64,000 bases of DNA. Source: Pseudoflavonifractor phocaeensis (GTDB lineage Bacteria; Bacillota; Clostridia; Oscillospirales; Oscillospiraceae). The stretch's first letter is position 1; each line of letters starts with the position of its first letter. The position numbers were made by a program, and so were the translations under genes. Below, piece after piece: positions 25,629-44,366 of the stretch. The notes beneath the pieces are model-generated. The model was not told where the DNA came from, did not search any database, and saw only the letters and a program-made list of their open reading frames with translations. Location: positions 62,001 to 126,000 of the forward strand of contig NZ_JADYUM010000004.1 in NCBI RefSeq assembly GCF_021531815.1, given 5' to 3'.

Positions 25629-26490
25629 CGTGATCCCCTCCAATAGCAACGAGTGAAGTCTCTTCCTTGCGCTCGCGACGCTTTTGGTTAATCTGCTTAA
25701 GGTTGGGGGTCGGGATCACAATATGGAAGGTTTCATTTAGGATCCATTTGAGCACAAAGAACGTAAGTATCGGCATCACAAAGTTCGTAAAGATTAAAAT
25801 TGCAATGGAGTTCATGCACCTACGAACGTTGTTTTGGAAGTGTAGCATGAGGTCGGAAATGTCTCTGATAGCTGTTTGGAAAAGTTCTGACAGCTTCTCG
25901 AAGATATTCATATCTTCCTCGTTACTTTCCATGGCAGTGTTTAGCTTATCCGCACCATTCTCAGTCTCGGCAATTGTTTCTTCTACATAGGCCGTTAGAT
26001 CAGCAGCCACATATTCAGTAATGTGGGTGCTGCAAGGAACAACTAGAGCTATGGCAAGGCTGAGAATGCAAAGACGAACTGCAAACGAATGAAGATAGTT
26101 CTTTTTTGTAGCTATAGCAATGGCACCTGCGATACATGACCATGGAATTAAAAGAGCGAAAGAGAGTTTGGTTCCATAAATGATTATTATTTTTTCTAAT
26201 AGTAGGACGACAAGAATTGCGATGAAGTAGGTGTTCATGTCCGTAAGGTGCTCAGCTATAGGTGTTGCAAAATCATCCGGTAAAGCTGTGATAGCTAAAG
26301 ATGCAGATAGCGTTGCGGCTGAAAATGCCATGACAGTTTGATTGCTTTCCTCGATACTTTCGAGGGACTCTTTAACAAAACCTGTATCCGAGAACCATGA
26401 TGTTGCATAGAAGAACGATAAGGCAGCTACAAGAAGCAGGGCCAAAATCTTAACTGCAAGTTTTGCGTGATCGGTTGACAGCATTCGCAT
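25618..26490 (-). CDS. Polytopic membrane protein, unrecognised
   Basis: A 290-residue protein. Hydrophobic segments occur at about 12-30, 60-70, 90-105, 110-127, 137-155 and 230-250, separated by an acidic, probably external loop around 165-190 and ending in a basic, cytoplasmic-type tail (QKRRERKEE). GGAGGG lies 6 bases before the ATG. I do not recognise the family. It is flanked by DUF4230 and EcsC-family genes, so an envelope role such as stress response or a membrane complex is possible, but nothing in the sequence fixes it. Confidence 0.6.
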   Translation of the reverse strand: MRMLSTDHAKLAVKILALLLVAALSFFYATSWFSDTGFVKESLESIEESNQTVMAFSAATLSASLAITALPDDFATPIAEHLTDMNTYFIAILVVLLLEKIIIIYGTKLSFALLIPWSCIAGAIAIATKKNYLHSFAVRLCILSLAIALVVPCSTHITEYVAADLTAYVEETIAETENGADKLNTAMESNEEDMNIFEKLSELFQTAIRDISDLMLHFQNNVRRCMNSIAILIFTNFVMPILTFFVLKWILNETFHIVIPTPNLKQINQKRRERKEETSLVAIGGDHDDE

Positions 26491-26502
26491 TATCAGCCCT
26501 CC

Positions 26503-27504
26503 TTACTTCGCAGTGCTTTCATCATCTGAAGGCTCTTCTGAGGTGAAGGCTACATCAATGACTGCATCGTTCAAAATGAGATCGTCATCTTCCTTAGAGG
26601 GACAATAATCGGGATTGCTAAGCATGGTGTTTTTCAGAGTCGCTCTCAGCTTATCACAGCAGGGCTTAAAGGAAACAAAGGTGAGTCCTCCACCGACAAC
26701 GCCGCCAACTACAGGAATGGCTTTCTTAAAGAAGCCTGCAAACACCTGCTTGGTCATCTTTACGCCAAACCATTTGGCAACACTTTTAACGATAGGATAA
26801 ATAGTGCCTTTAGTCAGAGCCTGACGGAGCAACTGTTTTTCAACACCGGTAGCCAACGCCTTGGCCATCGCCTTAAGTGCATTATTTGCGCCTGCAACAC
26901 CGTACATGACACCAAGACAGATGATCAGGGTATTCATAGTCTCTGAGTCAAATGTCTGATCCTTTTCGTCCAAGTCAATGGCCGGGAAGCCATAAAGGTA
27001 CATCAGCTTCTGGGTGGCACGAAGCATGTAGCCATAGTACTGCGCAATGTCAGCAGGGATCGTTGCAGCCATGGCAACTCCACCGGGCATACCGAGAGCA
27101 GCTGAGATGCCGGAGACGCAGTTACGTTCATACTTGATAACTTCATCTGCAATCTTCTCAATTAATTCAGAAGGTATATTGGCATGCAGCGGATTGAAAG
27201 TAATTGCATCATCAATGACGTCCTGAGGTAGTTTTGTCTTAAATTCATTCTGCAGGAACTGGGCTCGATCAATCCGGATGCCGGGAACCTTGAGGCCCAT
27301 AATAATGACATCTTCAATATCGACTTCGCCATTACCATTCTGGTCAATGGCTCCAAGAATAGCTTGCTGAGATTTTTCAGTGAGTTCCTTGGTTTTTCCT
27401 GCAACAGAAACGGCTGTTTTGCCAACGCTCTGAGCGGCATCAACGGTGGCTTTCCCGGCTTTATTAGCCAGTTCCTTTAGATCAATCTTTGGTTTCTTTT
27501 CCAT
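26503..27504 (-). CDS. EcsC-family protein with an EF-hand-like loop
   Basis: A protein of about 333 residues. The core (about 115-300) has the EcsC-family pattern: ISAALGMPGGVAMAATIPADIAQYYGYMLRATQKLMYLYGFP, followed by glycine-rich hydrophobic helices (AIPVVGGVVGGGLTF). Near residue 55 is DQNGNGEVDIED, a textbook calcium-binding EF-hand loop with dockerin-like spacing. The N terminus is a lysine/alanine-rich amphipathic helix. I chose ATG 27504, after GGAGG, over a TTG six codons earlier that lies inside that site. EcsC proteins associate with ABC exporters and membranes in Firmicutes; the exact role here is unknown. Confidence 0.75.
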   Translation of the reverse strand: MEKKPKIDLKELANKAGKATVDAAQSVGKTAVSVAGKTKELTEKSQQAILGAIDQNGNGEVDIEDVIIMGLKVPGIRIDRAQFLQNEFKTKLPQDVIDDAITFNPLHANIPSELIEKIADEVIKYERNCVSGISAALGMPGGVAMAATIPADIAQYYGYMLRATQKLMYLYGFPAIDLDEKDQTFDSETMNTLIICLGVMYGVAGANNALKAMAKALATGVEKQLLRQALTKGTIYPIVKSVAKWFGVKMTKQVFAGFFKKAIPVVGGVVGGGLTFVSFKPCCDKLRATLKNTMLSNPDYCPSKEDDDLILNDAVIDVAFTSEEPSDDESTAK

Positions 27505-33100: not shown

Positions 33101-34024
33101 TTAATCCTCCGAATGGTCAGCAACGAATGCTGCTTGCTTGAAAAGTCGTTCTTTAATGAGCGTGATGAAAGCATCAGGAGCTACAACCTCCAGCACAGGA
33201 CCGAAAGAAAGAACACGAATGAGAAGTTCGGTCTCATCGTCCTTATCATACCGGAGCTTAATCTGATAGAGCCGATGATCAAGCTTCAAAGTCTCCTTCT
33301 CGAAATGAGAGAAGTGGAGAAGGACACGCTCAAGGGCATTTCTCTCGTCATGAAGCAACATGGTAAGTTCACACATACGCTCCTGCGGGATCTGCATACT
33401 GTCTGCTTCATATTCCTCCAGAAGCTCACAGGACCGGACACGGGCGAGATTGATGATGTGCATATTGCGCTTTCCACGGGACTGGAGCCGGAACTTATCG
33501 TCTTTTGAAGAGTACTCCAACCGGTAGGGCATACAGACCAGAGAATGACGAATGCCGGTGTGCCCACGGAACCTGATGCGCAGCATTCTCTTCTCACGGA
33601 TCGACTGAAGCACTGTGCGGAAACAGGCAATGTAGTTTTCATCCTCATAGGGATCGCCATCAGAATACTGGTCGAAGAGCACGAACGTGCCGGGCTTATA
33701 CAGTGGTTCGACATCCTCAAGACCGGTGGTATCAGGATTGAACAAAGCAATACGCGGATCCTGGAGCAATGCCTTCAGCCAGCGCTTCTGCAGCTCGGTC
33801 AGGGGCATGGTGGGGGAGTGCTGGATCACAGTATTCTGATCTCTGTCCAAAAGGGGCCATGCCTCTTTTTTCAGTGCAGCAGGAATGGAGAGGGAACTTT
33901 CTGCAAAGGCCTTGTCCTGGATCAGCTCTGTCATACGCTTGTCCGTCAGACAACCGGCAGACGCCTCAGAGAGAATGGCGGCAACAACGTTAAAGTAGCT
34001 GCCATAGATTTCACTGAACAGCAT
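33101..34024 (-). CDS. WYL-domain regulator 2
   Basis: A protein of about 307 residues. The central segment (about 150-225: FRTVLQSIREKRMLRIRFRGH, MPYRLEYSSKDDKFRLQSRG, NLARVRSCELLEE) is a WYL domain, a ligand-binding fold that senses nucleic acids or nucleotides and controls transcription, often in defence and RNA-repair loci. No clear N-terminal helix-turn-helix is seen. ATG 34024 follows GGAGGTG and lies within the last codons of the preceding WYL gene, so the pair is translationally coupled and may act as a heterodimer like PafB-PafC. Confidence 0.8.
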   Translation of the reverse strand: MLFSEIYGSYFNVVAAILSEASAGCLTDKRMTELIQDKAFAESSLSIPAALKKEAWPLLDRDQNTVIQHSPTMPLTELQKRWLKALLQDPRIALFNPDTTGLEDVEPLYKPGTFVLFDQYSDGDPYEDENYIACFRTVLQSIREKRMLRIRFRGHTGIRHSLVCMPYRLEYSSKDDKFRLQSRGKRNMHIINLARVRSCELLEEYEADSMQIPQERMCELTMLLHDERNALERVLLHFSHFEKETLKLDHRLYQIKLRYDKDDETELLIRVLSFGPVLEVVAPDAFITLIKERLFKQAAFVADHSED

Positions 34025-35258
34025 CGTTGTCACCTCCGTACATAGCATTCATCCGTTCGAGATCTTCATAGAATGTCTTCACCACGAACTGGCTGCTACA
34101 CTGCAGATCCACGATCCGGCCAATAAAGGTACGGAGCCACGGCAGCATTTCGGATGCATCATAAACATCAGCAACGAATTTACAGGTATGCTCGTCAATG
34201 ATCTCAATGTGGCCATGCCGCTTCTCACGCTCCAGACGCTGCAGGATGAATTCTTCGCCAGGACCATGATGGATGGTCATTTCGATATGATCCAAGTTGT
34301 GATCCGGACCAGTCGATACTCCCCAGAGGTGCTGATCGAACTTTTCCTGGTACCCGACGTACTTGGCGTATTGCTTTTCGATGTTGCCAATAGCGACTTT
34401 CTTAATGGCATCCAGTCGGAAGAAAGTCATGTGCTTACCTCGATAGTGATAGCCCAGTAAGTACTGGCGTCCGGATTGTGTGCTGACATAGATATTCAAG
34501 GGGCAAACCGTGCGTTGGTAGTCTTTGCCGCTGCGCAAGCTCTTAACGGTCAATTCAACAGCACGCTGCTCATCAATGGCCAGCAGGAGGTCACACAGAA
34601 CATCACTATCCAAGGCGTGGAGTATGTAGTGATGCTTGAAGCGGAAGGCATCAGAGTTATTTTCCAGCTTGTCCATAAGGAAAGAGCCCACAACACCCAT
34701 AGGATTTTCTTCAGAGAAGAATGCCAGGGCATCAACCCATGTAGTGAGATCAAAGGACTCATCGTCCGTTCTTTTGTAAAAAACTTCACGGCCACGCTTC
34801 TCAGAGCAGATGAGACCGAGCGTTTCATACTCCTTCAGCTTCTTTCGAACGGTGGATTCATCCAAGGAAAAGGCGTCATTGAAGTGGGACAGGTAGTTAT
34901 CCGAAATTCGATCGATGATTTCCTTCGACGACAGGGAATTGCCATCAGCCAGGATATCTAAAATGTAAAAATGTAGTGTAATATCCTTATCTGTAAAGCT
35001 TTTTGCCTTGAAAGCTTTATGGAGCGGATTATGGGGGATTCTTCGGCTATCTACGGACAGAAATACATTCTTACCAGAAGAATCCTGATGGAAAGACATA
35101 TAGTCGCCAAGCCAGCTTTCAATTCTGCGGCGCTCATTATCGTAGCTGCGAGCGCTCTTGGAATCGTATTCTTCACGGCTCTTGAAACCATATACATAGA
35201 ACTCACGCATGTAGTCACGAATGCGTTCGAAGTTCTTTATCAGTTCACTGTATGCCAT
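34011..35258 (-). CDS. WYL-domain transcriptional regulator 1
   Basis: A protein of about 415 residues. An HTH-like region lies at about 105-165 (FYILDILADGNSLSSKEIIDRIS, then DESTVRKKLKEYETLGLI), followed by a WYL domain (about 235-330: LLLAIDEQRAVELTVKS, CPLNIYVSTQSGRQYLLGYHYRGKHMTFFRLDAIKKVAIG) and a WCX-like C-terminal extension. ATG 35258 follows GGAGGTGG; upstream in-frame codons cross the promoter. A TGTMC-N8-GGACA operator overlaps the probable promoter 49 bases upstream. The gene is divergent from the operon leading into the RNA array, so it is the obvious candidate regulator for that locus. Confidence 0.85.
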   Translation of the reverse strand: MAYSELIKNFERIRDYMREFYVYGFKSREEYDSKSARSYDNERRRIESWLGDYMSFHQDSSGKNVFLSVDSRRIPHNPLHKAFKAKSFTDKDITLHFYILDILADGNSLSSKEIIDRISDNYLSHFNDAFSLDESTVRKKLKEYETLGLICSEKRGREVFYKRTDDESFDLTTWVDALAFFSEENPMGVVGSFLMDKLENNSDAFRFKHHYILHALDSDVLCDLLLAIDEQRAVELTVKSLRSGKDYQRTVCPLNIYVSTQSGRQYLLGYHYRGKHMTFFRLDAIKKVAIGNIEKQYAKYVGYQEKFDQHLWGVSTGPDHNLDHIEMTIHHGPGEEFILQRLEREKRHGHIEIIDEHTCKFVADVYDASEMLPWLRTFIGRIVDLQCSSQFVVKTFYEDLERMNAMYGGDNDAVQ

Positions 35259-35306
35259 CAAATCCACCTCCATTTCCGGGTTATACGCTAATTTTACCAT
35301 ATTCGC

Positions 35307-35324
35307 TGTACCAATAAAAGGACA
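35307..35324. promoter_or_regulatory. TGTMC-N8-GGACA operator, copy 2, with minus-strand promoter
   Basis: The inverted repeat TGTAC-CAATAAAA-GGACA lies 49 bases upstream of WYL regulator 1. On the minus strand the repeat contains a possible -35 element (TTGTCC) followed after 18 bases by TATGGT, so a bound protein would cover the promoter. Confidence 0.55.
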
Positions 35325-35349
35325 ACTGGAAAACATATAAAACGATTAG

Positions 35350-35378: not shown

Positions 35379-35399
35379 AGGGAACAGGTGGTGATATGT

Positions 35400-35855
35400 A
35401 TGAGCTCTTCTGGAAACAACGTATTGATCTCTGAGAAAATAAAAAGAATATACGCGATTACTGCAGAACTTGAGGCTCTGTATCCCGGTCGCCACTTTAC
35501 TCCAGATGGCCACATGGTTGGCAGCATCGGAGAAGTGTTGGTTGCTGAGCATTACGGCTTGCAACTCTTGACGGCATCATATGAAACTCACGATGCAATT
35601 GCGCCAGATGGCCGCTATGTGCAGATCAAGGCCACCCAGGTTAATCGGATCGCGATCAGCAGTGAACCGGACTACCTGATCGTCATAAGGCTCTTGCCAG
35701 ACGGCTCCTTTGAAGAATGTTATAATGGAACTGGAGCCGAAGTATGGAATGCTGCCGGTCCCATGCAGAAGAATGGTCAGCGGAGCATTTCCTTGGCCAA
35801 GCTTATTAAGCTTAATAGGGAGCAGAAGGATTCTGACCGCATCCAACGTCGATAA
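35400..35855 (+). CDS. DUF6998-like, PD-(D/E)XK-fold protein
   Basis: A 151-residue protein. The pattern GSIGEVLVAEHYGLQL, then HDAIAPDGRYVQIKATQ, gives E...D...QxK, the arrangement of the PD-(D/E)XK nuclease-like fold, and resembles small DUF6998-type proteins of Firmicutes. ATG 35400 follows AGGTGG; a GTG four codons earlier is less well placed. It is the first gene divergent from the WYL regulators. Whether it cuts nucleic acid is unknown. Confidence 0.6.
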   Translation: MSSSGNNVLISEKIKRIYAITAELEALYPGRHFTPDGHMVGSIGEVLVAEHYGLQLLTASYETHDAIAPDGRYVQIKATQVNRIAISSEPDYLIVIRLLPDGSFEECYNGTGAEVWNAAGPMQKNGQRSISLAKLIKLNREQKDSDRIQRR

Positions 35856-36930: not shown

Positions 36931-37262
36931 GCGCTTCAAGCCTTCCAAACAGAGGGCTAAGCGCACGTATAAATGTGTGTACAGGAATGGAAATGAATCC
37001 GTCTACCTGCCTCTATACTATATATGTTTGTTCAGAACAGCAAAATGTGGTATCAAATTAGAAATTTCCTCAATTTTTTCTGCTCTATACAAGTTTCTAT
37101 ATAATAAGACACTTCAACTCTGAAAGTGCAACATGAAATATAAGGATATTTGAAAATTTATTGTTACTTCTCGTGTTCTTATGGTGAATTCAAAGCGTGT
37201 ATTGGAGTTCGCAACTTTTTTTCCGTGATTTTCCTCTATGTGCGCGGTATTCTTAACTCACG
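36930..37262 (+). other. Non-coding leader of the RNA array
   Basis: No credible gene is seen in these 330 bases. Bases 36931-36963 fold into a two-part hairpin (GCGCTT/AAGCGC, then AGCCTTC/GAGGGCT). A TATAAT at 37100-37105 and a TTGTTC-17-TATCAA pair (37028-37056) are possible promoters for the downstream RNAs, neither convincing. The stretch is A/T-rich. Confidence 0.4.
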
Positions 37263-37372
37263 AAAAGCACAAACAGCAACGCTTAAAAGCATACGACTGT
37301 TAACCGTAGAAGCTATGTCCCTTCTGCAATCAATACCGGTTGCAGCGCTGGGGCGGATACAATGTGCTTTGT
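37263..37372 (+). ncRNA. Y-RNA-like unit 1 (AACAGCAA motif)
   Basis: A closing stem of 8 bp (37264-37271 with 37363-37370) surrounds a folded core. Right after the 5' strand comes AACAGCAAC, the motif shared by units 1, 2, 5, 6, 7 (variant ATCAGCAA) and 8, and the 3' strand ends in CTTTG like its siblings' CTTG. Inside is a 6-bp hairpin (CTGCAA/TTGCAG) in the place of a T-arm. It begins a tandem row of eight structured units leading to a Ro60-like gene, so I read it as a Y-RNA-like partner of that protein. Confidence 0.6.
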
Positions 37373-37373
37373 A

Positions 37374-37496
37374 AAAGACGCCAACAGCAATTCCTGATAT
37401 TGTTCCTACATTAGCTCACTTAAGGAGCACCTGACTTCGGGTCAGGCCAAAGTTGGGTGAGATCCCCAACATGTAATTATCATGATGGCGTCTTGT
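37374..37496 (+). ncRNA. Y-RNA-like unit 2 with a full cloverleaf core
   Basis: The closing stem is 9 bp (37375-37383 with 37486-37494), followed by AACAGCAA. The core 37407-37475 folds as a cloverleaf with tRNA geometry: acceptor-like TACAT/ATGTA, a two-base TA linker, D-arm-like GCTC/GAGC, one base, anticodon-arm-like CCTGAC/GTCAGG with a TTCGG loop, a 5-base variable loop, and T-arm-like GTTGGG/CCCAAC. The loops lack tRNA consensus bases (no GG in the D loop, no TTC in the T loop), so it is a shape mimic with its own sequence rather than a decayed tRNA. Confidence 0.65.
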
Positions 37497-37500
37497 AGCT

Positions 37501-37595
37501 GAGGAATGCATCATACTGGTAGTTCGGCTGGTAGAATAGGAGACTAATAATCTCGGTGTCGCAGGTTCAAGTCCTGTCCGTATGATGCATTCTTA
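37501..37595 (+). ncRNA. tRNA-like unit 3 with a hyper-extended acceptor stem
   Basis: A perfect 13-bp stem (37504-37516 with 37580-37592) continues through a bulged T and two G-C pairs into a tRNA body: TA linker, D-arm GTTC/GAAT with loop GGCTGGTA, anticodon arm with loop CTAATAA (anticodon position AAT), variable loop, and T-arm GCAGG-TTCAAGT-CCTGT. It lacks the AACAGCAA motif and an encoded CCA. The long acceptor rules out an ordinary tRNA; it resembles the tRNA-mimic modules of bacterial Y RNAs. Confidence 0.65.
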
Positions 37596-37600
37596 CCATC

Positions 37601-37679
37601 AATAACGGTAGCTGGCCGTGAGATATCCACTTTCGACTGCACTGCAGTTTGGGATGTAGAGGATCGGTCTACCGCTATT
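37601..37679 (+). ncRNA. Structured unit 4 of the RNA array
   Basis: AATA-A-CGGTAG (37601-37611) pairs with CTACCG-C-TATT (37669-37679), a 10-bp stem with one A x C mismatch. The core contains ACTGCACTGCAGT and paired ATCC/GGAT segments. The AACAGCAA motif is absent. It sits between units 3 and 5 with only a few bases on each side, so it is most simply another member of the array, of a different subtype. Confidence 0.5.
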
Positions 37680-37681
37680 AT

Positions 37682-37781
37682 AAAGGCACCAACAGCAACT
37701 GACGAATAGCTAAGTTGGTTATAGCAGATGGTTCATACCCATCGTTCGTGGGTTCGACTCCCACTTCATATGGTGCCTTGT
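37682..37781 (+). ncRNA. Y-RNA-like unit 5 enclosing a tRNA-Met/Ile-like core
   Basis: The closing stem is 9 bp (37683-37691 with 37771-37779) plus AACAGCAAC. Inside, three of four tRNA arms are intact: TA then D-arm GCTA/TAGC with loop AGTTGGTTA; anticodon arm GATGG/CCATC with loop TTCATAC (anticodon CAT); T-arm GTGGG-TTCGACT-CCCAC. The acceptor is reduced to about three pairs (GAA/TTC) and merges into the closing stem. The sequence similarity to tRNA is clear, so this unit was probably derived from a tRNA gene by replacement of the acceptor with the Y-RNA-type stem. Confidence 0.7.
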
Positions 37782-37791
37782 ACTTATCAAT

Positions 37792-37903
37792 AAAGATGCC
37801 AACAGCAATCAAACTAGACGGTTTTGGATCCGACACTATCGCTACCAATGGGCTGTCGGAAGCATGACAGCTCATGTAGGCGGTAAATCTAATGGCATCT
37901 TGT
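37792..37903 (+). ncRNA. Y-RNA-like unit 6
   Basis: The closing stem is 9 bp (37793-37801 with 37893-37901) followed by AACAGCAAT. Internal helices include TAGA/TCTA, CCGAC/GTCGG and the hairpin CATGA-CAGC-TCATG, which sits where a T-arm would. Loops do not match tRNA consensus. Confidence 0.6.
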
Positions 37904-37904
37904 T

Positions 37905-38032
37905 AAAGGCGCGATCAGCAATTTAGCAAAGGTCTAGCTCATGCTCTTGAGCCACTCATTTTGTCCGGCAGTAGCGATGAGTGATTGCATGGCTGTCTGA
38001 TGTTGCCGGAACTGAAGACAGCAGCGCCTTGC
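37905..38032 (+). ncRNA. Y-RNA-like unit 7 (divergent motif)
   Basis: The closing stem is 7 bp (37906-37912 with 38024-38030) followed by ATCAGCAAT, a variant of the shared motif. The longest core of the array contains GCTCA/TGAGC, CACTCAT/ATGAGTG, GCTGTCT/AGACAGC and a possible long-range pairing CCGGCA/TGCCGG that would cross the others. Confidence 0.55.
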
Positions 38033-38036
38033 TAAT

Positions 38037-38103
38037 AAAGGCACCAACAGCAATAATTGGTAACGTCTCTTACGCTGGGTTCAAATCCCTAATGGTGCCT
38101 TGT
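38037..38103 (+). ncRNA. Y-RNA-like unit 8, minimal tRNA-like
   Basis: The shortest unit (67 bases). The closing stem is 9 bp (38038-38046 with 38093-38101) followed by AACAGCAAT. The core keeps a D-loop-like AATTGGTAAC and a T-arm GGG-TTCAAAT-CCC but no anticodon arm. It ends 34 bases before the ATG of the Ro60-like gene with no terminator in between, so the array and that gene may share a transcript. Confidence 0.6.
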
Positions 38104-38137: not shown

Positions 38138-39598
38138 ATGCTTAAGTTTCTGAAGAAAGAAGCGAATATGACCTATACCGAGAACGGCGCAGCTACATAT
38201 CGATCCACCCAGTCTGAATGTCTGGATCTGTTTGCAACGATCGGTGCCCTGCGCAGAGAAAGTGATGAAGAGATCACCAATCGCTTCCTCCGTGCCTATG
38301 CTGAGGACGCAGACCTGGCAATGAAGACCCTGTTCTTCGCCCGCGATATCCGTGGCGGTATCGGTGAGCGTCGAGTGTTCCGGACTATCCTGAAGTGGCT
38401 GGCGGCCAATGAGCCCCAGTCTTTGGAGAAGAACATCCAGTACATTGCAGAGTATGGTCGTTACGATGACTTGCTGGCTCTGATGGGCACTACCTGTGAA
38501 GGTAAGGCTCTGCAGCATATTAAGAAGCAGCTAGCTGCAGATTGTGCTGCACTGGAGTCTGGCGATTCCGTGTCCCTGCTGGCCAAGTGGCTGCCTTCTG
38601 TCAACGCATCCAATGATGATACTGTTCGCCATGCTAAGCGAATTGCACGTGCAATGGGTATGAACGATGCCCAGTACCGTAAGACGCTGAGTGCCCTGCG
38701 TGCGAAGATCAGTATCATTGAGAATAATCTTCGCGAAAAAGACTACACCTTCGATTACTCCAAGCAGCCCTCTAAGGCAATGTTCAAGTACCGTAAGGCT
38801 TTCATGCGTAATGATGGTGACCGATACGGTAACTTCATGAACAGAGTCGCCGAGGGAGTGGAGCAGATCCATACCGGTGCCTTGACTCCCTACGAGATGA
38901 TTAAGCCTTTCTTCAATAGAGGTTCCATCTCTGACGCGGAGCGCAAGGCAATCGATGCCACCTGGAAGGCGCAGGAGGATTTCACTGGCGGCGAGAACGC
39001 TCTGGTCGTTATTGATGGCTCCGGCTCCATGTACGGTGGTGCGGATCCCATTCCCGCAACGGTAGCGCTGTCTCTGGGAATTTACTATGCCGAGCGTAAC
39101 ACCGGCGCATTCCAGAACCATTTCATTACCTTCTCTGAGAATCCCAAGCTGGTTGAGATCAAGGGCAAGGATATCTATGAAAAGGTACGTTACTGTCATC
39201 AGTTCAACGAGGTGGCCAACACCAACATCCAGCGCGTGTTCGAGCTGATTCTGAAGACTGCTGTAAAGAACCGGGTGCCTCAGGAAGATATGCCTGCCAA
39301 GGTCTACATCATCTCTGATATGGAGTTCGACTACTGTACCGAAGATTGTTCTCTGACCAACTTCGAGTACGCACAGCGACTCTTTGCAGAGCATGGCTAC
39401 CAGCTGCCTGAAGTGGTGTTCTGGAACGTGGCAAGCCGTAACCAGCAGCAGCCCGTCAAGGTTAATGATAAGGGCGTTGCACTGGTCTCCGGTTGTAACC
39501 CTCGTGTCTTCTCCATGCTGAAGGCAGGCATCCTGTCTCCCTACGCCTTCATGATGGATGTGCTGGGTTCTGAGCGTTACGCACCCATTGTGGCATAA
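38138..39598 (+). CDS. Ro60-like RNA-binding protein (TROVE/DUF2828 plus VWA)
   Basis: A 486-residue protein. The N-terminal 280 residues are helical repeats of the TROVE/DUF2828 kind, with the conserved elements FFARDIRGGIGERRVFR and YIAEYGRYDDLLALM that recur in Ro60 homologues. The C-terminal part is a VWA domain with a MIDAS motif VVIDGSGSMYG near residue 292 and IISDMEFDY near 395. Ro60 proteins form a ring that binds Y RNAs on its outside and the 3' ends of misfolded RNAs in its centre, feeding RNA decay or repair. GGAGGAG precedes the ATG. The tandem Y-RNA-like units directly upstream and rtcB downstream support this role. Whether DUF2828 or TROVE is the better family label needs a profile search. 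Confidence 0.8.
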   Translation: MLKFLKKEANMTYTENGAATYRSTQSECLDLFATIGALRRESDEEITNRFLRAYAEDADLAMKTLFFARDIRGGIGERRVFRTILKWLAANEPQSLEKNIQYIAEYGRYDDLLALMGTTCEGKALQHIKKQLAADCAALESGDSVSLLAKWLPSVNASNDDTVRHAKRIARAMGMNDAQYRKTLSALRAKISIIENNLREKDYTFDYSKQPSKAMFKYRKAFMRNDGDRYGNFMNRVAEGVEQIHTGALTPYEMIKPFFNRGSISDAERKAIDATWKAQEDFTGGENALVVIDGSGSMYGGADPIPATVALSLGIYYAERNTGAFQNHFITFSENPKLVEIKGKDIYEKVRYCHQFNEVANTNIQRVFELILKTAVKNRVPQEDMPAKVYIISDMEFDYCTEDCSLTNFEYAQRLFAEHGYQLPEVVFWNVASRNQQQPVKVNDKGVALVSGCNPRVFSMLKAGILSPYAFMMDVLGSERYAPIVA

Positions 39599-39607
39599 AG
39601 CTGTTGA

Positions 39608-39653
39608 AGCAGGAGGTGATAGCATTGCTGTTATCATCTCCTGCTATTTTCAT
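39608..39653 (+). terminator. Terminator or attenuator between the Ro-like gene and rtcB
   Basis: A 14-bp stem with one G.U pair (39608-39621 with 39632-39645) and a 10-base loop, followed by ATTTTCATTTTTTC. It starts 9 bases after the Ro-like stop, so it should limit read-through into rtcB. Confidence 0.8.
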
Positions 39654-39735: not shown

Positions 39736-40938
39736 ATGGTTACGATTCAAGGTTTATATAATACCGCTGTCTGTTACACTCCCGAGCTGGAGGAACTGGC
39801 AGCGAAGCAAATTAAGGCGGTGTGCGATCAGGTGGAGTTTGCCGGTTGCAAGATCCGCATCATGCCTGACGTGCATGCCGGTAAGGGCTGTACCATCGGC
39901 ACCACCATGACCATCCAGGATAAGATTGTTCCCGGTATGGTTGGCGTCGATATTGGCTGCGGCATGGAGACGGTTGAAATTGCAGAGCGTGATATTGACT
40001 TCGCCAAGCTGGATGCTCTGATCCGGAAGGAAATCCCTTATGGCCGAGAGGTCAGAGATACCCTTCACGCACTGAATGCCGAAATTGATCTGACTCAACT
40101 GCGCTGTGCCGATCAGGTTAATTTGAACCGAGCTATGCGAAGCATTGGTTCTCTGGGCGGTGGTAACCACTTCATTGAAATAGACCGCGCTGAGGATGGC
40201 CGCCTGTTCCTGGTAGTTCACTCCGGCTCCCGGCACTTCGGCACCGAAGTTGCTGAATACTATCAGAATGAGGGCCGTCGTGCGCTCTGGGGCGGTGCAC
40301 AATACCAGGTTCAGGAAGTGATTGCGCAGCTGAAGGCAGAAGGTCGGTTCCAGGAAATCCAGAAGACCATTAAGGCGCTGAAGAAGGAACATGATCTTTC
40401 TATCCCTAAGGATCTGGCCTATGTAGAGGGCAAGCTGTTTGAGGACTACATCCATGATATGAAGATCACTCAGCAGTTTGCCATGCTCAACCGTAAGGCC
40501 ATGGTGGATGTCATCATGACCGGCATGGGCTTCACTGCTGTGGAAGCATTCACCACCATCCACAACTATATCGATACTGACGCCATGATTCTGCGTAAGG
40601 GCTCTGTGTCCGCTAAGGCAGGGGAGAAGCTGTTGATCCCCATCAACATGCGCGATGGCAGCCTCATCTGCATTGGTAAGGGCAATGAGGAGTGGAACTG
40701 CTCTGCACCTCATGGCGCTGGTCGCCTTATGAGCCGTCGTGCAGCCTTTGGTGCGCTTTCCATGGAAGAGTTCCAGAAGGAGATGGAAGGTATCTATACC
40801 ACCTGCGTGCTGCCTGACACCCTGGATGAGTCTCCTATGGCATACAAGAGCATGGACGAAATCGTTGCGCAGATCGGTCCCACCGCAGATATCATTGAGC
40901 GCATCCGACCTGTTTATAACTTCAAGGCTGCCGACTAA
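39736..40938 (+). CDS. rtcB: RNA-splicing ligase RtcB
   Basis: A 400-residue GTP-dependent RNA ligase that joins 2',3'-cyclic phosphate (or 3'-phosphate) and 5'-OH ends. Metal- and GTP-binding motifs are all visible: MPDVHAGKG, GVDIGCGME (metal cysteine near 75), SIGSLGGGNHFIE, VVHSGSRHFG, and CSAPHGAGRLMSR with the guanylated histidine at 326. AAGGAG precedes the ATG. The length fits the RtcB family. It has its own promoter and is followed 11 bases later by a small gene, the RlaP-like transferase and cca. In this setting it would reseal RNAs, for example tRNAs cut by toxins, held by the Ro60-like protein; that link is inference. Confidence 0.95.
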   Translation: MVTIQGLYNTAVCYTPELEELAAKQIKAVCDQVEFAGCKIRIMPDVHAGKGCTIGTTMTIQDKIVPGMVGVDIGCGMETVEIAERDIDFAKLDALIRKEIPYGREVRDTLHALNAEIDLTQLRCADQVNLNRAMRSIGSLGGGNHFIEIDRAEDGRLFLVVHSGSRHFGTEVAEYYQNEGRRALWGGAQYQVQEVIAQLKAEGRFQEIQKTIKALKKEHDLSIPKDLAYVEGKLFEDYIHDMKITQQFAMLNRKAMVDVIMTGMGFTAVEAFTTIHNYIDTDAMILRKGSVSAKAGEKLLIPINMRDGSLICIGKGNEEWNCSAPHGAGRLMSRRAAFGALSMEEFQKEMEGIYTTCVLPDTLDESPMAYKSMDEIVAQIGPTADIIERIRPVYNFKAAD

Positions 40939-40949
40939 GGAGGAGCATC

Positions 40950-41270
40950 ATGGATAACTATGAAGCAATCCTGCGTATGGATAGAACCGCAATGGAAGGA
41001 TTCTTGGATCAGGTATATCTGGCCGGAATGAATGCCGGGTTATATGCAGCTCGACTTCCAAACGAAAGTGAGGAGCAGTTTGAGGTGCTCGATGAAAACC
41101 CGTTTGATTCTTCCTGGCTTTCTGGTGAGGCAGAACACGCCGTGTTAGGCACGATCGTCGAAGATGGGGATGAATATATGCTTGATGCGCTAACTACTGC
41201 GGTATTTCGTAACGCAGGGATTGACCCAAAGGAGGAAGGTGAACCGGGCGATGGAGGCATTGATCCGTGA
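40950..41270 (+). CDS. Small acidic hypothetical protein of the RNA-repair operon
   Basis: A 106-residue acidic protein (many D/E, ending in a glycine-rich GEPGDGGIDP) without a recognised domain. GGAGGAG precedes the ATG. Its 3' end overlaps the start of the nucleotidyltransferase gene by 20 bases, so translation is probably coupled. Function unknown; conserved position would suggest an accessory role. Confidence 0.6.
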   Translation: MDNYEAILRMDRTAMEGFLDQVYLAGMNAGLYAARLPNESEEQFEVLDENPFDSSWLSGEAEHAVLGTIVEDGDEYMLDALTTAVFRNAGIDPKEEGEPGDGGIDP

Positions 41271-42006
41271 AAAACTGAAAGAAATTGAACAGCGCGAAGG
41301 TTGCCGAATCCTGCTCGCTGTTGAGTCCGGAAGTAGAGCCTGGGGCTTTGCTTCTCCGGATAGCGACTACGATGTACGCTTCATTTACGTGCGACCTAAG
41401 GAGTCCTATTTGCGGCTGGATCGGGTACGTGACGTAATTGAAGTGCCCATCAACGATGAGTTGGACATCAACGGTTGGGATGTAGATAAGGCTTTGAAAC
41501 TACTCCACAAATCTAACCCTACTGTGTTTGAGTGGTTCTCATCTCCAATCATCTATCAGACCAGCGAGTTCGCTGAGAAGTTCAAGCATATTATGAGGAA
41601 GTATTTTTCTTCCAAGAGTGGCCTGTGGCATTACCTTCATATGGCTGAAGGCAACTTCCGCGAGTTTCTGCGTGGTGACAGGGTCAAAGCCAAAAAGTAT
41701 TTCTATGTACTTCGACCTATTTTGGCTTGCCGCTGGATCCTTGAGAAGGGAACCCCACCCCCGATGCTGTTTTCTGAACTCATGGAGAGCCAGTTAGATG
41801 AAGGCCTGAAAGAGACCGTTTATGAGCTCTTGGATCTGAAAATGAATGCACCGGAAGTGAAGACGATTCTGCGTATTGATGTGCTCAACGAATATCTGGA
41901 TCGCAGTATCATCGAAGTGAAAGAAATGATCGAGCGCCTGCCTAAGGAGCAGACGCATGAGTGGGAGGAACTGAACGAATTGTTCCTCTCAGTATTGGAG
42001 TTGTGA
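41251..42006 (+). CDS. RlaP-like nucleotidyltransferase (RNA-repair associated)
   Basis: A 251-residue protein of the DNA polymerase beta superfamily. The active-site signature LAVESGSRAWGFASPDSDYDVRFIYV (about 22-47, given here in part: SGSRAWGF and DSDYDVRF) is that of PF10127, which Burroughs and Aravind named RlaP for its link to RNA repair loci. The helical C-terminal half has YFYVLRPILACRWI and a KxxP-rich tail. I take ATG 41251, with AAGGTG upstream, although a TTG at 41221 extends the frame. A nucleotidyltransferase next to RtcB and a CCA enzyme suggests adding nucleotides or phosphate-end processing of damaged RNA; the reaction is not known. Confidence 0.85.
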   Translation: MEALIREKLKEIEQREGCRILLAVESGSRAWGFASPDSDYDVRFIYVRPKESYLRLDRVRDVIEVPINDELDINGWDVDKALKLLHKSNPTVFEWFSSPIIYQTSEFAEKFKHIMRKYFSSKSGLWHYLHMAEGNFREFLRGDRVKAKKYFYVLRPILACRWILEKGTPPPMLFSELMESQLDEGLKETVYELLDLKMNAPEVKTILRIDVLNEYLDRSIIEVKEMIERLPKEQTHEWEELNELFLSVLEL

Positions 42007-42010
42007 TGAT

Positions 42011-43372
42011 ATGATGTATGTGCCACCACAAGTGAATACCGCTTTGGATCTGCTCGCTGCAGCTGGTTATGAGGCTTACCTTGTTGGTGGTGCTGTCCGT
42101 GACTATGTCAGAGAGAACCGGCAGGGGAAGGACTGGGATATTACAACCAGTGCGCTTCCGGAAGAAGTTGAGCGAGTGTTTGCCGGATACCGTCTGATCG
42201 AAACCGGCCTGAAGCACGGCACCGTCACTGTTGTGATTGATGGAGAGCCTTTGGAGATCACCACTTACAGAGTTGATGGTAGCTATTCTGACCACCGGCG
42301 TCCGGACTCCGTTAGCTTTACCAGGAGCCTCCGGGAGGATGTCGAGCGCAGAGACTTCACCATGAACGCTCTAGCCTATAATCCATCTGCAGGTGTCGTT
42401 GATCTGGTCGGTGGCGTGAAGGATATCGAAGCTAAGATCTTACGTTGCGTAGGAGATCCTGATCGGCGCTTCCAGGAAGATGCCCTTCGTATACTCCGAG
42501 CTTTGCGTTTTGCATCTGTCCTTGGCTTGGAGATTGAGTCCGCAACTGCAGAAGCAGCGCATAAGAATAAAGCTCTTCTGAAGGAGATTGCAGCTGAACG
42601 CATCCAGGTTGAATTGACGAAGATGCTTTGTGGTGAGGGTATTCAGGAAGTACTTGTGAAATACTCAGACATCCTTGCTGTTGTCATGCCCGAGCTTGAA
42701 CCGATGTTTGGCTTTGAGCAGCAAAATCCACACCATAACAGTGATGTTTGGTATCATACCGTCAAAGTTGTTACCAACGCACCGGCTGAACCGGTGATGA
42801 GATGGACTGCGCTGCTGCACGATGTCGGTAAGCCTCACTGCTTCTCGCTGGATGAGCAAGGTATTGGGCACTTCTTTGGACACGCCAGCAAAAGCACCGT
42901 TATAGCAGATGAGTTGCTTCAACGGCTTCGTTTTGATAACGCTACACGGGAGCGGATCACTTTGTTGGTTAAAAATCACGATACACCGCTGCCGTCTGAT
43001 GAGCGTGGCGTCAAACGACTGATGAACCGACTTGGTTCAGAGGCTGCGCTTCAGATTGTAAATATCCACCGGGCAGATACCGCTGGTCAGCACCCAGACT
43101 GTGCGTATAGATATGTTGAGTTCGATGAGGTAAAGGCAATGATGCAGAAGGTACTCGATGAGCAGGCTTGCTTCTCTGTGAAGAACCTTGCCATCAACGG
43201 TAATGACGTGCTGGCAAAAGGACTACGCGGCAAACAGGTAGGTGAAGCGCTCCAGAGGACGCTTAATGCGGTAATGGACGGTGAAGTGCCTAACGAGAAG
43301 AACGAATTGCTTATCTTTTTGGATTGTATCCTGGACGAGTACATGGAAGACTACAGGAAAATGTCCGAGTAA
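42011..43372 (+). CDS. cca: CCA tRNA nucleotidyltransferase
   Basis: A 453-residue class II CCA-adding enzyme with HD domain. Motifs: LVGGAVRDYV (about 25), DWDITTSALPEE (catalytic DxD, about 42), DFTMNALAYNP with RRDF (about 115), EDALRILRALRFA (about 156), and an HD phosphohydrolase region ALLHDVGKPH (about 268). It builds and repairs the 3' CCA end of tRNA. Every tRNA gene in this window encodes its own CCA, so the element has no need of this enzyme for maturation; repair of damaged tRNA, or CCA addition to the tRNA-like RNAs of the array, is more likely. It follows the RlaP-like gene by four bases. Confidence 0.95.
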   Translation: MMYVPPQVNTALDLLAAAGYEAYLVGGAVRDYVRENRQGKDWDITTSALPEEVERVFAGYRLIETGLKHGTVTVVIDGEPLEITTYRVDGSYSDHRRPDSVSFTRSLREDVERRDFTMNALAYNPSAGVVDLVGGVKDIEAKILRCVGDPDRRFQEDALRILRALRFASVLGLEIESATAEAAHKNKALLKEIAAERIQVELTKMLCGEGIQEVLVKYSDILAVVMPELEPMFGFEQQNPHHNSDVWYHTVKVVTNAPAEPVMRWTALLHDVGKPHCFSLDEQGIGHFFGHASKSTVIADELLQRLRFDNATRERITLLVKNHDTPLPSDERGVKRLMNRLGSEAALQIVNIHRADTAGQHPDCAYRYVEFDEVKAMMQKVLDEQACFSVKNLAINGNDVLAKGLRGKQVGEALQRTLNAVMDGEVPNEKNELLIFLDCILDEYMEDYRKMSE

Positions 43373-43872: not shown

Positions 43873-43956
43873 TGGTGGGCCAGGTTGGACTCGAACCAAC
43901 GCATGATTAACCGGCGCATTTACAGTGCGCTGCCATTGCCGCTAGGCGACTGACCC
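43873..43956 (-). tRNA. tRNA-Tyr (GTA)
   Basis: The acceptor GGGTCAG/CTGGCCC closes with one G.U pair, the anticodon loop is CTGTAAA (GTA), a class II-type variable arm follows, and the T-arm is GTTGG-TTCGAGT-CCAAC. ACCA is encoded at the 3' end. Confidence 0.92.
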
Positions 43957-43959
43957 ATA

Positions 43960-44045
43960 TGGCGGAGAGCGCAGAATTCGAATCTGACACCGTGAAGTGC
44001 GATCCGCTTAGCGGGCGGTCCCCGGACCTTCCGGGTTCACTCTCC
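43960..44045 (-). tRNA. tRNA-Ser (GCT)
   Basis: The acceptor GGAGAGT/GCTCTCC, anticodon loop CCGCTAA (GCT), long variable arm and T-arm CAGATTCGAATTCTG fit a serine tRNA. CCA is encoded. Confidence 0.9.
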
Positions 44046-44051
44046 GTATTT

Positions 44052-44126
44052 TGGCTGGGGTGGCTGGATTCGAACCAACGAATGGCGGAGTCAGAGTCCG
44101 CTGCCTTACCACTTGGCTACACCCCA
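44052..44126 (-). tRNA. tRNA-Gln (CTG)
   Basis: The acceptor TGGGGTG/CACCCCA, D-arm TAGCCAAGTGGTAAGGCA, anticodon loop CTCTGAC (CTG) and encoded GCCA end mark a glutamine tRNA. Confidence 0.93.
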
Positions 44127-44130
44127 ATAT

Positions 44131-44206
44131 TGGCAGGGGCAGAGTGACTTGAACACCCAGCACGCGGTTTTGGAGACCGCTGCTCTACCAGTTGAGCTAT
44201 GCCCCT
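44131..44206 (-). tRNA. tRNA-Trp (CCA)
   Basis: The acceptor AGGGGCA/TGCCCCT, D-arm TAGCTCAACTGGTAGAGCA, anticodon loop CTCCAAA (CCA) and encoded GCCA end identify a tryptophan tRNA. Confidence 0.93.
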
Positions 44207-44209
44207 ATG

Positions 44210-44286
44210 TGGTGATGCCTGCGGGACTTGAACCCGGCATTACAAGCTTGAGAGGCTTGCGTCCTGACCAATTAGACGAAGGCACC
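44210..44286 (-). tRNA. tRNA-Glu (CTC)
   Basis: The acceptor GGTGCCT/AGGCATC (one G.U), anticodon loop CTCTCAA (CTC) and T-arm CCGGG-TTCAAGT-CCCG fit a glutamate tRNA; ACCA is encoded. Confidence 0.9.
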
Positions 44287-44289
44287 GTA

Positions 44290-44366
44290 TGGAGATCCGC
44301 ACCGGACTCGAACCGGTCATCGCAACCGTGAAAGGGTTGTGTCCTAACCTTTTAGACGAGCGGACC
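44290..44366 (-). tRNA. tRNA-Glu (TTC)
   Basis: The acceptor GGTCCGC/GCGGATC (one G.U), anticodon loop CTTTCAC (TTC) and T-arm ACCGG-TTCGAGT-CCGGT fit a glutamate tRNA. The discriminator base reads T before the encoded CCA, which is unusual for Glu. First tRNA in the direction of transcription. Confidence 0.88.

Follow-up and report, generated by a model that had tools for sequence, protein, structure and literature searches.

Tandem Y-RNA-like units, several of them resembling tRNA, precede a Ro60-like gene in Pseudoflavonifractor phocaeensis

An array of stem-enclosed units ahead of a Ro60-like gene

The stretch of DNA analyzed here, 64,000 nucleotides of Pseudoflavonifractor phocaeensis (hereafter the window), comes from contig C40 of a 2.67-Mb genome. 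Between positions 37264 and 38101, its plus strand carries a tandem array of six related RNA units, and 36 bases separate the end of the array from the start of a gene encoding a Ro60-like protein (38138–39598, plus strand). Each unit is closed by a stem of 7 to 9 base pairs (bp), the 5′ strand of which is followed by the motif AACAGCAA, replaced in a single unit by ATCAGCAA, and the 3′ end reads CTTG or CTTTG. A preliminary description of the window, made from its letters alone, had proposed these six units together with two elements of another type, leading straight into a Ro60-like gene; all of these features were found in place.

Unit 1 (37264–37370) is formed by the stem AAAGCACA/TGTGCTTT followed by ACAGCAA. 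By eye, its interior contains an Asn-type CTGTTAA anticodon loop, which was excluded from the hairpin counts given below owing to an A·C mismatch beside the loop. In unit 2 (37375–37494), the stem AAGACGCCA/TGGCGTCTT encloses a tRNA-like body with the variant T loop TGAGATC, called tRNA-Arg(tcg) at 37406–37477 by ARAGORN. Units 2 and 3 are separated by the two elements of another type. The tRNA-like one (37505–37591) is devoid of the shared stem; it has a 12-bp closing stem AATGCATCATAC/GTATGATGCATT, a CTAATAA loop and no CCA, is called tRNA-Ile(aat) by ARAGORN, scores 43 bits in the covariance model described below and has a folding z-score of −2.5. The other is a stem-loop (37602–37681; ATAACGGTAG/CTACCGCTATTAT; z-score −2.8). 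Unit 3 (37683–37779) runs from the stem AAGGCACCA/TGGTGCCTT through ACAGCAA, a 3-bp acceptor stub, a D arm and an anticodon arm (GATGG-TTCATAC-CCATC) to a T arm. Unit 4 (37793–37901) is closed by AAGATGCCA/TGGCATCTT, and unit 5 (37906–38030) by AAGGCGC/GCGCCTT, with the motif variant GATCAGCAA. Unit 6 (38038–38101), with the stem AAGGCACCA/TGGTGCCTT, contains a T-arm-like hairpin (GGGTTCAAATCCC) and scores 34 bits. All these elements are on the plus strand.

Under a strict rule (stem of at least 7 bp with at most one G-U pair, CAGCA[AG], AA[AG] within the stem, and TTG at the end), the array region yielded six units, against a mean of 0.004 and a maximum of 1 in 1000 dinucleotide shuffles. The remainder of the window gave one extra place per strand (30 shuffles of the window, both strands: mean 0.7, maximum 4). 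Without the AAR and TTG conditions the rule became unspecific, with 22 places on both strands of the window. The folding z-scores of units 1 to 6 were −2.4, −4.1, −3.5, −4.7, −1.6 and −1.9, so that units 5 and 6 are unexceptional by folding energy alone. At gathering scores, Rfam returned tRNA matches alone over the window and no Y RNA family; ARAGORN and Rfam combined called three elements of the array tRNA.

The structural model of the Ro-like protein shows a ring of helical repeats and a vWA domain, which is the fold of Ro60 and Rsr. According to this model, the protein encoded after the array is a Ro60-fold protein. A first AlphaFold run, with close homologues as sole input, reached a predicted local distance difference test score (pLDDT) of 62 and was discarded. 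At E ≤ 1, the Pfam matches of the protein were DUF7788, DUF2828 (helical repeats and vWA) and a weak VWA_2, with no match to TROVE (PF05731). DUF2828 and DUF7788 matched 50 of 50 relatives, and TROVE was absent from the 25 families listed of 30. A protein-profile search of the sequences of solved structures gave a single irrelevant weak match (E 0.045).

Homologues of the protein made up 7973 of 8000 scored candidates. The gene is patchy: it was found above the Pfam cut-off in 15 of 295 genomes of the order and in 23 of 400 genomes of the family, none of the nine other same-genus genomes listed among these 400 having it. It was also present in 673 of 50,697 phage records and in 4 of 72,556 plasmids. 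The carriers include Clostridia and Synergistaceae, many of them from gut samples according to the source records, and several DUF2828 phage genes adjoin tRNA genes. We then counted units across 103 loci; of the 473 genome loci found, the best 80 were used (ten with less than 2.5 kb upstream). In total, 209 units were in the sense orientation and 1 was antisense, and the 5′ stem strand fitted A-A-R-R-Y-R-C/T in 195 of the 210. At least one unit was located upstream of the Ro-like gene in 75 of the 80 genome loci and at least two in 56, with a maximum of eight. The preliminary description had proposed a structured-RNA family built around a stem resembling a protein site, and had named a lack of conserved stem and motif in related elements as evidence against it. 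Both are conserved and recur beside the same gene in genomes and phages, which supports the proposal. Its suggestion that an eight-unit array would be new needs correction, since arrays are common in this gene family and eight is the top of the range.

A separate set of 11 phage and plasmid loci, chosen from 677 records, comprises phages of Listeria, Bacillus, Mycobacterium, Enterococcus, Klebsiella, Salmonella, Campylobacter, Staphylococcus and Synechococcus, a faecal contig and a Subdoligranulum plasmid. Under a looser rule, units were found beside the gene in 11 of 11 (28 sense versus 1 antisense); the strict rule detected them in 7 of 11, with zero on the opposite strand. Units of the Staphylococcus and Mycobacterium phages are situated downstream of the gene. 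The arrangement of the array is conserved in the relatives G173 and L039, and related arrays are also present in Oscillibacter sp. MSJ-31 (L033) and Anaeromassilibacillus sp. An200 (L032). In G173, the protein is 96% identical and the array is collinear; by eye, unit 2 has TCA versus TCG in the window, the extra tRNA-like element has AAA versus AAT, and the counterpart of the stem-loop at 37602–37681 has altered stem letters.

In Listeria phage cka15, a promoter-like site (TTGACA...TATCAT) precedes three units with stem and CAGCAA (L189:4651–4915), which are themselves upstream of CKA15_055. Another RNA, of very high abundance, maps to L189:3477–3968 (PMC12282133). We considered the abundant CKA15 RNAs of that study as evidence of expression and rejected them: the region with printed coordinates (26,236–26,727, corresponding to L189:3477–3968) is upstream of the three units and does not contain CAGCAA, and the other two regions are unplaced in the accessible text, so that these RNAs give no proof of expression of the units.

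tRNA bodies and 23S rRNA hairpins within the units

Twenty-two of the 210 units, picked by eye for a full tRNA body, were aligned. They all contain, in this order, the shared stem, ACAGCAA, a 3-bp acceptor stub, a D arm, an anticodon arm and a T arm. In this alignment, 96.2% of the cells pair, a percentage biased towards the tRNA structure by the selection, and slid controls pair at 34–48%. Both sides were changed in 15 of 24 pairs, and the double-changed cells numbered 61 versus 17.1 in shuffles (0 of 500 reaching the observed value). Motif invariance and shared-stem pairing in this alignment (A2) arise by construction, because the unit finder accepts a candidate only if it has CAGCAA (or CAGCA[AG]) and its stem pairs; among the 16 pairs that do not belong to the shared stem, 12 were changed on both sides. 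The acceptor stub, of about 3 bp, is paired in 89% of the cells. None of the 22 units, nor the element at 37505–37591, has the 7-bp acceptor stem and the CCA or CCA-ready end of a tRNA gene. Judged by their sequences, many units are non-permuted tRNA bodies in which only about 3 bp of the acceptor stem remain and the shared stem takes its place, an architecture that is new here. These tRNA bodies with diversified anticodon arms are more surprising than the length of the array, and were absent from the preliminary description.

A covariance model of the 22 units, run over the whole genome, recovered unit 3 at 106 bits (unit 3 being among the sequences of the model) and three other elements of the array at 28–43 bits. 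In the same search, 36 further matches of 27.6–42.7 bits fell at tRNA genes. Units with an interior above 160 nucleotides were excluded from the hairpin and rRNA counts, leaving 203–204. A canonical anticodon hairpin was present in 61 of 203 units versus 4.5 in shuffles, and a T arm in 47 of 203 versus 0.3. Within 2 kb upstream of the gene in 81 loci, ARAGORN called 36 tRNA-like elements in the sense orientation, 21 of them within units, and 2 on the other strand.

Of all parts of the units, the anticodon loop varies most: identity was 0.35 in this loop and 0.51 in its stem, compared with 0.755 in the D arm, 0.777 in the T stem and 0.856 in the T loop. The five closest unit-3 sequences retain their stems and carry the anticodons CAT, TAC, TGA, CAT and TAT. 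Among the 84 hairpins obtained with looser criteria, of which some are rRNA-like or due to chance, the anticodons include CAT, TAT, TGA, GAA, GTC, GTT, TCG and TTT. Concomitantly, the anticodon loops retain U33 and purine 37, and 25 of the 61 canonical loops are identical to one of the 45 loops found in the 59 tRNAs of this genome; permutation of the letters within loop positions gave a mean of 7.0 and a maximum of 14 in 2000 trials. Hairpins with a T[GA]A[GA]A loop were seen in 10 of 204 units (unit 2 of the window at 37375–37494 and nine others), the controls giving 4 and 3, and two of the ten are D-arm hairpins in units which also have a normal T loop.

Four units (L046:7438, L056:7273, L044:6451 and L033:7871) hold, not a tRNA part, but a hairpin of the 23S rRNA of this genome (GTCAGGTAAGTTCTGACC or close to it), which we take to be helix H71. 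The scores were 50, 40, 38 and 32, respectively, and no antisense or reversed control reached 30. The matches are mismatch-free over 24, 20 and 19 letters in L046, L056 and L044, and have 2 mismatches in 21 in L033. The rRNA tallies also took in matches to tRNA genes flanking the rRNA locus, and these four units alone were counted as rRNA copies. Three other units (L058:7527, L089:5229 and L042:3846) share GAAT.GGCTAG...GAACC, which resembles another 23S stretch (score 29 in L058, by eye in the other two).

Promoter, regulators and RNA-repair genes

A conserved box, TCGCAACTTTTTTTCC, is located upstream of the array at 37209–37224 on the plus strand. Its consensus CGCAACTTTTTTTCC occurs at 33 sites in 32 of the 103 loci, including the window, and once in this genome with up to two mismatches allowed. 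A TA[AT]NNT hexamer lies exactly 23 nucleotides 3′ of the box in 30 of the 33 sites, and the distance from the box to the first AAR stem is about 37–38 nucleotides in most of them. In the window, the putative −10 element TATTCT (37248–37253, plus strand), proposed from this fixed spacing, is followed ten bases later by unit 1, which suggests that transcription probably starts at the array, just before this unit.

Two divergent genes upstream encode a WYL-domain regulator (34011–35336, minus strand) and a second WYL-type regulator (33101–34048, minus strand), the latter recognized by the PADLOC WYL model (E 5.4e-8) with Pfam WYL and WCX below the cut-off. Each was found upstream in 37 of the 60 relatives' loci with at least 5 kb upstream. 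The box was present in 24 of 37 loci with a WYL gene versus 2 of 24 without (p 1.2e-5, a statistic that ignores shared descent). Between these genes and the array, at 35388–35855, lies the gene of a DUF6998 protein weakly matching methyl-directed restriction enzymes (PADLOC, E 4.7e-7).

Downstream of the Ro-like gene and before the RtcB gene, a terminator-like hairpin of 17 pairs occupies 39608–39645 (plus strand). It is one of two terminator-like sites in the region, the other being weak and within unit 5, and shuffles gave more (mean 4.8). The genes that follow on the plus strand encode the RNA ligase RtcB (39736–40938; PF01139), the RNA-repair nucleotidyltransferase RlaP (41221–42006; PF10127) and a CCA-adding tRNA nucleotidyltransferase (42011–43372). 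No RtcA was found among the scanned operon proteins, and the neighbouring regulators are WYL, not RtcR. RtcB was downstream in 32 of the 49 relatives' loci with at least 6.5 kb downstream. In the viral contigs, neither RtcB, RlaP, the CCA enzyme nor WYL genes were found. Just past the operon, five tRNA genes (Tyr, Gln, Trp, Glu, Glu) are clustered at 43873–44366 in the opposite direction (minus strand).

Possible roles of the array and comparison with known systems

The array is very probably a Y-RNA-like set of tRNA and rRNA mimics. We propose that transcription driven by the box would start at the array and that units would be released, their docking stem (AA-R-R-Y-R-C... and ACAGCAA) most likely being bound by the Ro-like protein. 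The display part would mimic some cellular RNA, which may be a tRNA body whose anticodon arm is intact, an anticodon hairpin or T hairpin on its own or, among the relatives, the 23S hairpin. Since the tRNA-like units have neither an acceptor stem nor a CCA, they are not expected to be charged or to take part in translation. On their protein platform, they may offer the anticodon loops that are targets of anticodon nucleases, whether these come from toxin-antitoxin systems, phages or rival bacteria. Cut tRNAs would be repaired by RtcB, RlaP and the CCA-adding enzyme, and the WYL pair probably activates the promoter upon sensing RNA damage. We infer this bait function from the fidelity of the loops together with their diversity, the repair genes and the phage distribution. 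That the units are mainly baits for RNA-cutting enzymes, all these steps included, falls just short of being probable. Somewhat more tentative is the wider idea of an evolving, heritable bait library, in which tandem Ro-bound RNAs of bacteria, phages and plasmids would differ from one another in the vulnerable site of the translation machinery that they present, the displays being swapped between species as RNA-cutting weapons change and the same operon supplying the repair enzymes.

Several observations weigh against the bait proposal. Five of the 80 genome loci yield no unit, and an upstream unit meets the strict rule in just 5 of 22 viral contigs. Many units, among them units 4 and 5 of the window, have no recognized resemblance to a known RNA, and the canonical anticodon hairpin is restricted to those 61 of 203 units. 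Of the 22 aligned units, 14 have canonical loops; in the other 8 the loops are short or altered, needless for a bait of anticodon nucleases. RlaP and the CCA enzyme seldom accompany the gene (8 and 2 of 49 loci, respectively). Relaxed constraint is another possible source of the variable anticodons. Finally, Salmonella YrlA is reported as not cut by the nuclease studied, and a role as competitive inhibitor has been proposed for it (PMC7790460); as far as that account goes, sequestration fits better than cutting.

The computations did not tell baits, scaffolds and a leader apart. The units might be plain Y-RNA scaffolds that tether the Ro-like protein to effectors recognizing the tRNA fold, or that gate the Ro ring, the anticodon letters being irrelevant. 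The tethering of Ro to PNPase by the tRNA-like domain of a bacterial Y RNA in Deinococcus (PMC8394870) and the stronger conservation of the D and T arms over the anticodon arm are in keeping with such a role. A single effector should, however, favour one module, whereas the interiors span full tRNA bodies, lone hairpins and the 23S hairpin, whose copies argue against a purely tRNA-directed scaffold; moreover, U33, purine 37 and genuine tRNA loop sequences are kept far above chance. We regard scaffolds as rather unlikely. Still less likely is a cis-acting leader, in which the array would be a 5′ sensor on the Ro mRNA and Ro binding, or cuts within the tRNA-like units, would alter the stability or translation of the operon (autoregulation or damage sensing). 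A conserved promoter does precede unit 1, the stretch from unit 6 to the Ro gene is free of terminator-like sites (the weak one being inside unit 5), and the counted units are upstream of the gene in genome loci, though by design of the scan. Up to eight units are nevertheless long for a leader, and those of the Staphylococcus and Mycobacterium phages follow the gene. Decayed, functionless tRNA genes on a mobile element would account for the three elements called tRNA and for the several phage relatives within tRNA clusters; the covarying helices outside the shared stem, the recurrence of stem and motif by the gene on one strand only and the arrangement kept in G173 and L039 are not expected from decay, which we consider highly improbable.

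According to PMC7790460, what Ro and Y RNAs do within RNA-repair operons fell outside the studies it presents. A docking stem with many displays, several of them recognizable as copies of anticodon arms or of an rRNA hairpin, makes this role directly testable, each loop with its matching nuclease. If the bait proposal is true, the arrays would be an RNA-level immune repertoire in Clostridia, Synergistaceae, phages and plasmids. If it is false, they remain a sizeable natural collection of likely Ro ligands that share an evident docking motif, and establish as a class Y-RNA-like molecules that are not permuted and bear an anticodon. A literature search, with the primary papers on bacterial Y RNAs outside its reach, found no account of such tRNA-mimic arrays among the papers listed.

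The closest known system is YrlA/Rsr, in which a noncoding RNA with a closing stem and a tRNA-like domain adjoins a Ro60-fold gene, in some bacteria within an rtcBA operon (PMC7790460, PMC8394870). The units share the position beside a Ro60-type gene and, in part of them, the tRNA-like domain. However, the superposition of YrlA (6CU1) on tRNA is circularly permuted (PMC11472068), whereas the aligned units keep the D-anticodon-T order, carry an anticodon arm and have the docking stem at the acceptor position. The motif also differs from that of human Y RNA, GGUCCGA (PMC11277228) versus ACAGCAA, and the protein matches DUF2828 instead of the Pfam TROVE family of Ro60 and Rsr. The Salmonella rsr-yrlBA-rtcBA operon likewise combines a Ro protein, a tRNA-like Y RNA and the RtcB ligase (PMC7790460). 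Here, a WYL pair rather than RtcR adjoins the operon, RtcA is absent from the proteins scanned, RlaP and the CCA enzyme are present, and up to eight units stand against the two Y RNAs named for Salmonella. Phage tRNAs that evade anticodon nucleases show a comparable diversity of anticodon loops in RNAs possibly meeting such enzymes; they are proposed to be working, cut-insensitive tRNAs (PMC10264068), whereas the units, devoid of acceptor stem and CCA, should be unable to replace a tRNA. Among mycobacteriophages, for which PMC12282133 cites Chen et al. 2014 on phage Y RNAs, Wamburgrxpress has three units with stem and CAGCAA beside a gene annotated Ro-like RNA binding protein, but downstream of it.

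In six TROVE loci, the stem with CAGCA[AG] was found twice in the sense and once in the antisense orientation, which is the chance level for these few loci, and two further TROVE loci (L204, L205) gave scattered matches on both strands. On the Rhizobium rhizogenes plasmid pC5.7c (L250:4019–4935), between a TROVE-type gene beside rtcR and rtcB, about six tandem repeats were seen by eye. They have the form GGCGAATGCCG...ACTACAGG...CTCGTCGCC, several with T-arm sequences, and are canonical Y-RNA-like units, so that arrays as such are not confined to the DUF2828 family. Two YrlA-like RNAs with a CCGAGG/CCTCGG stem (L206:1295–1436 and L206:1712–1820) lie upstream of another TROVE gene; by eye, the first of them has an Asn-type CTGTTAA hairpin, and its tRNA parts are permuted.
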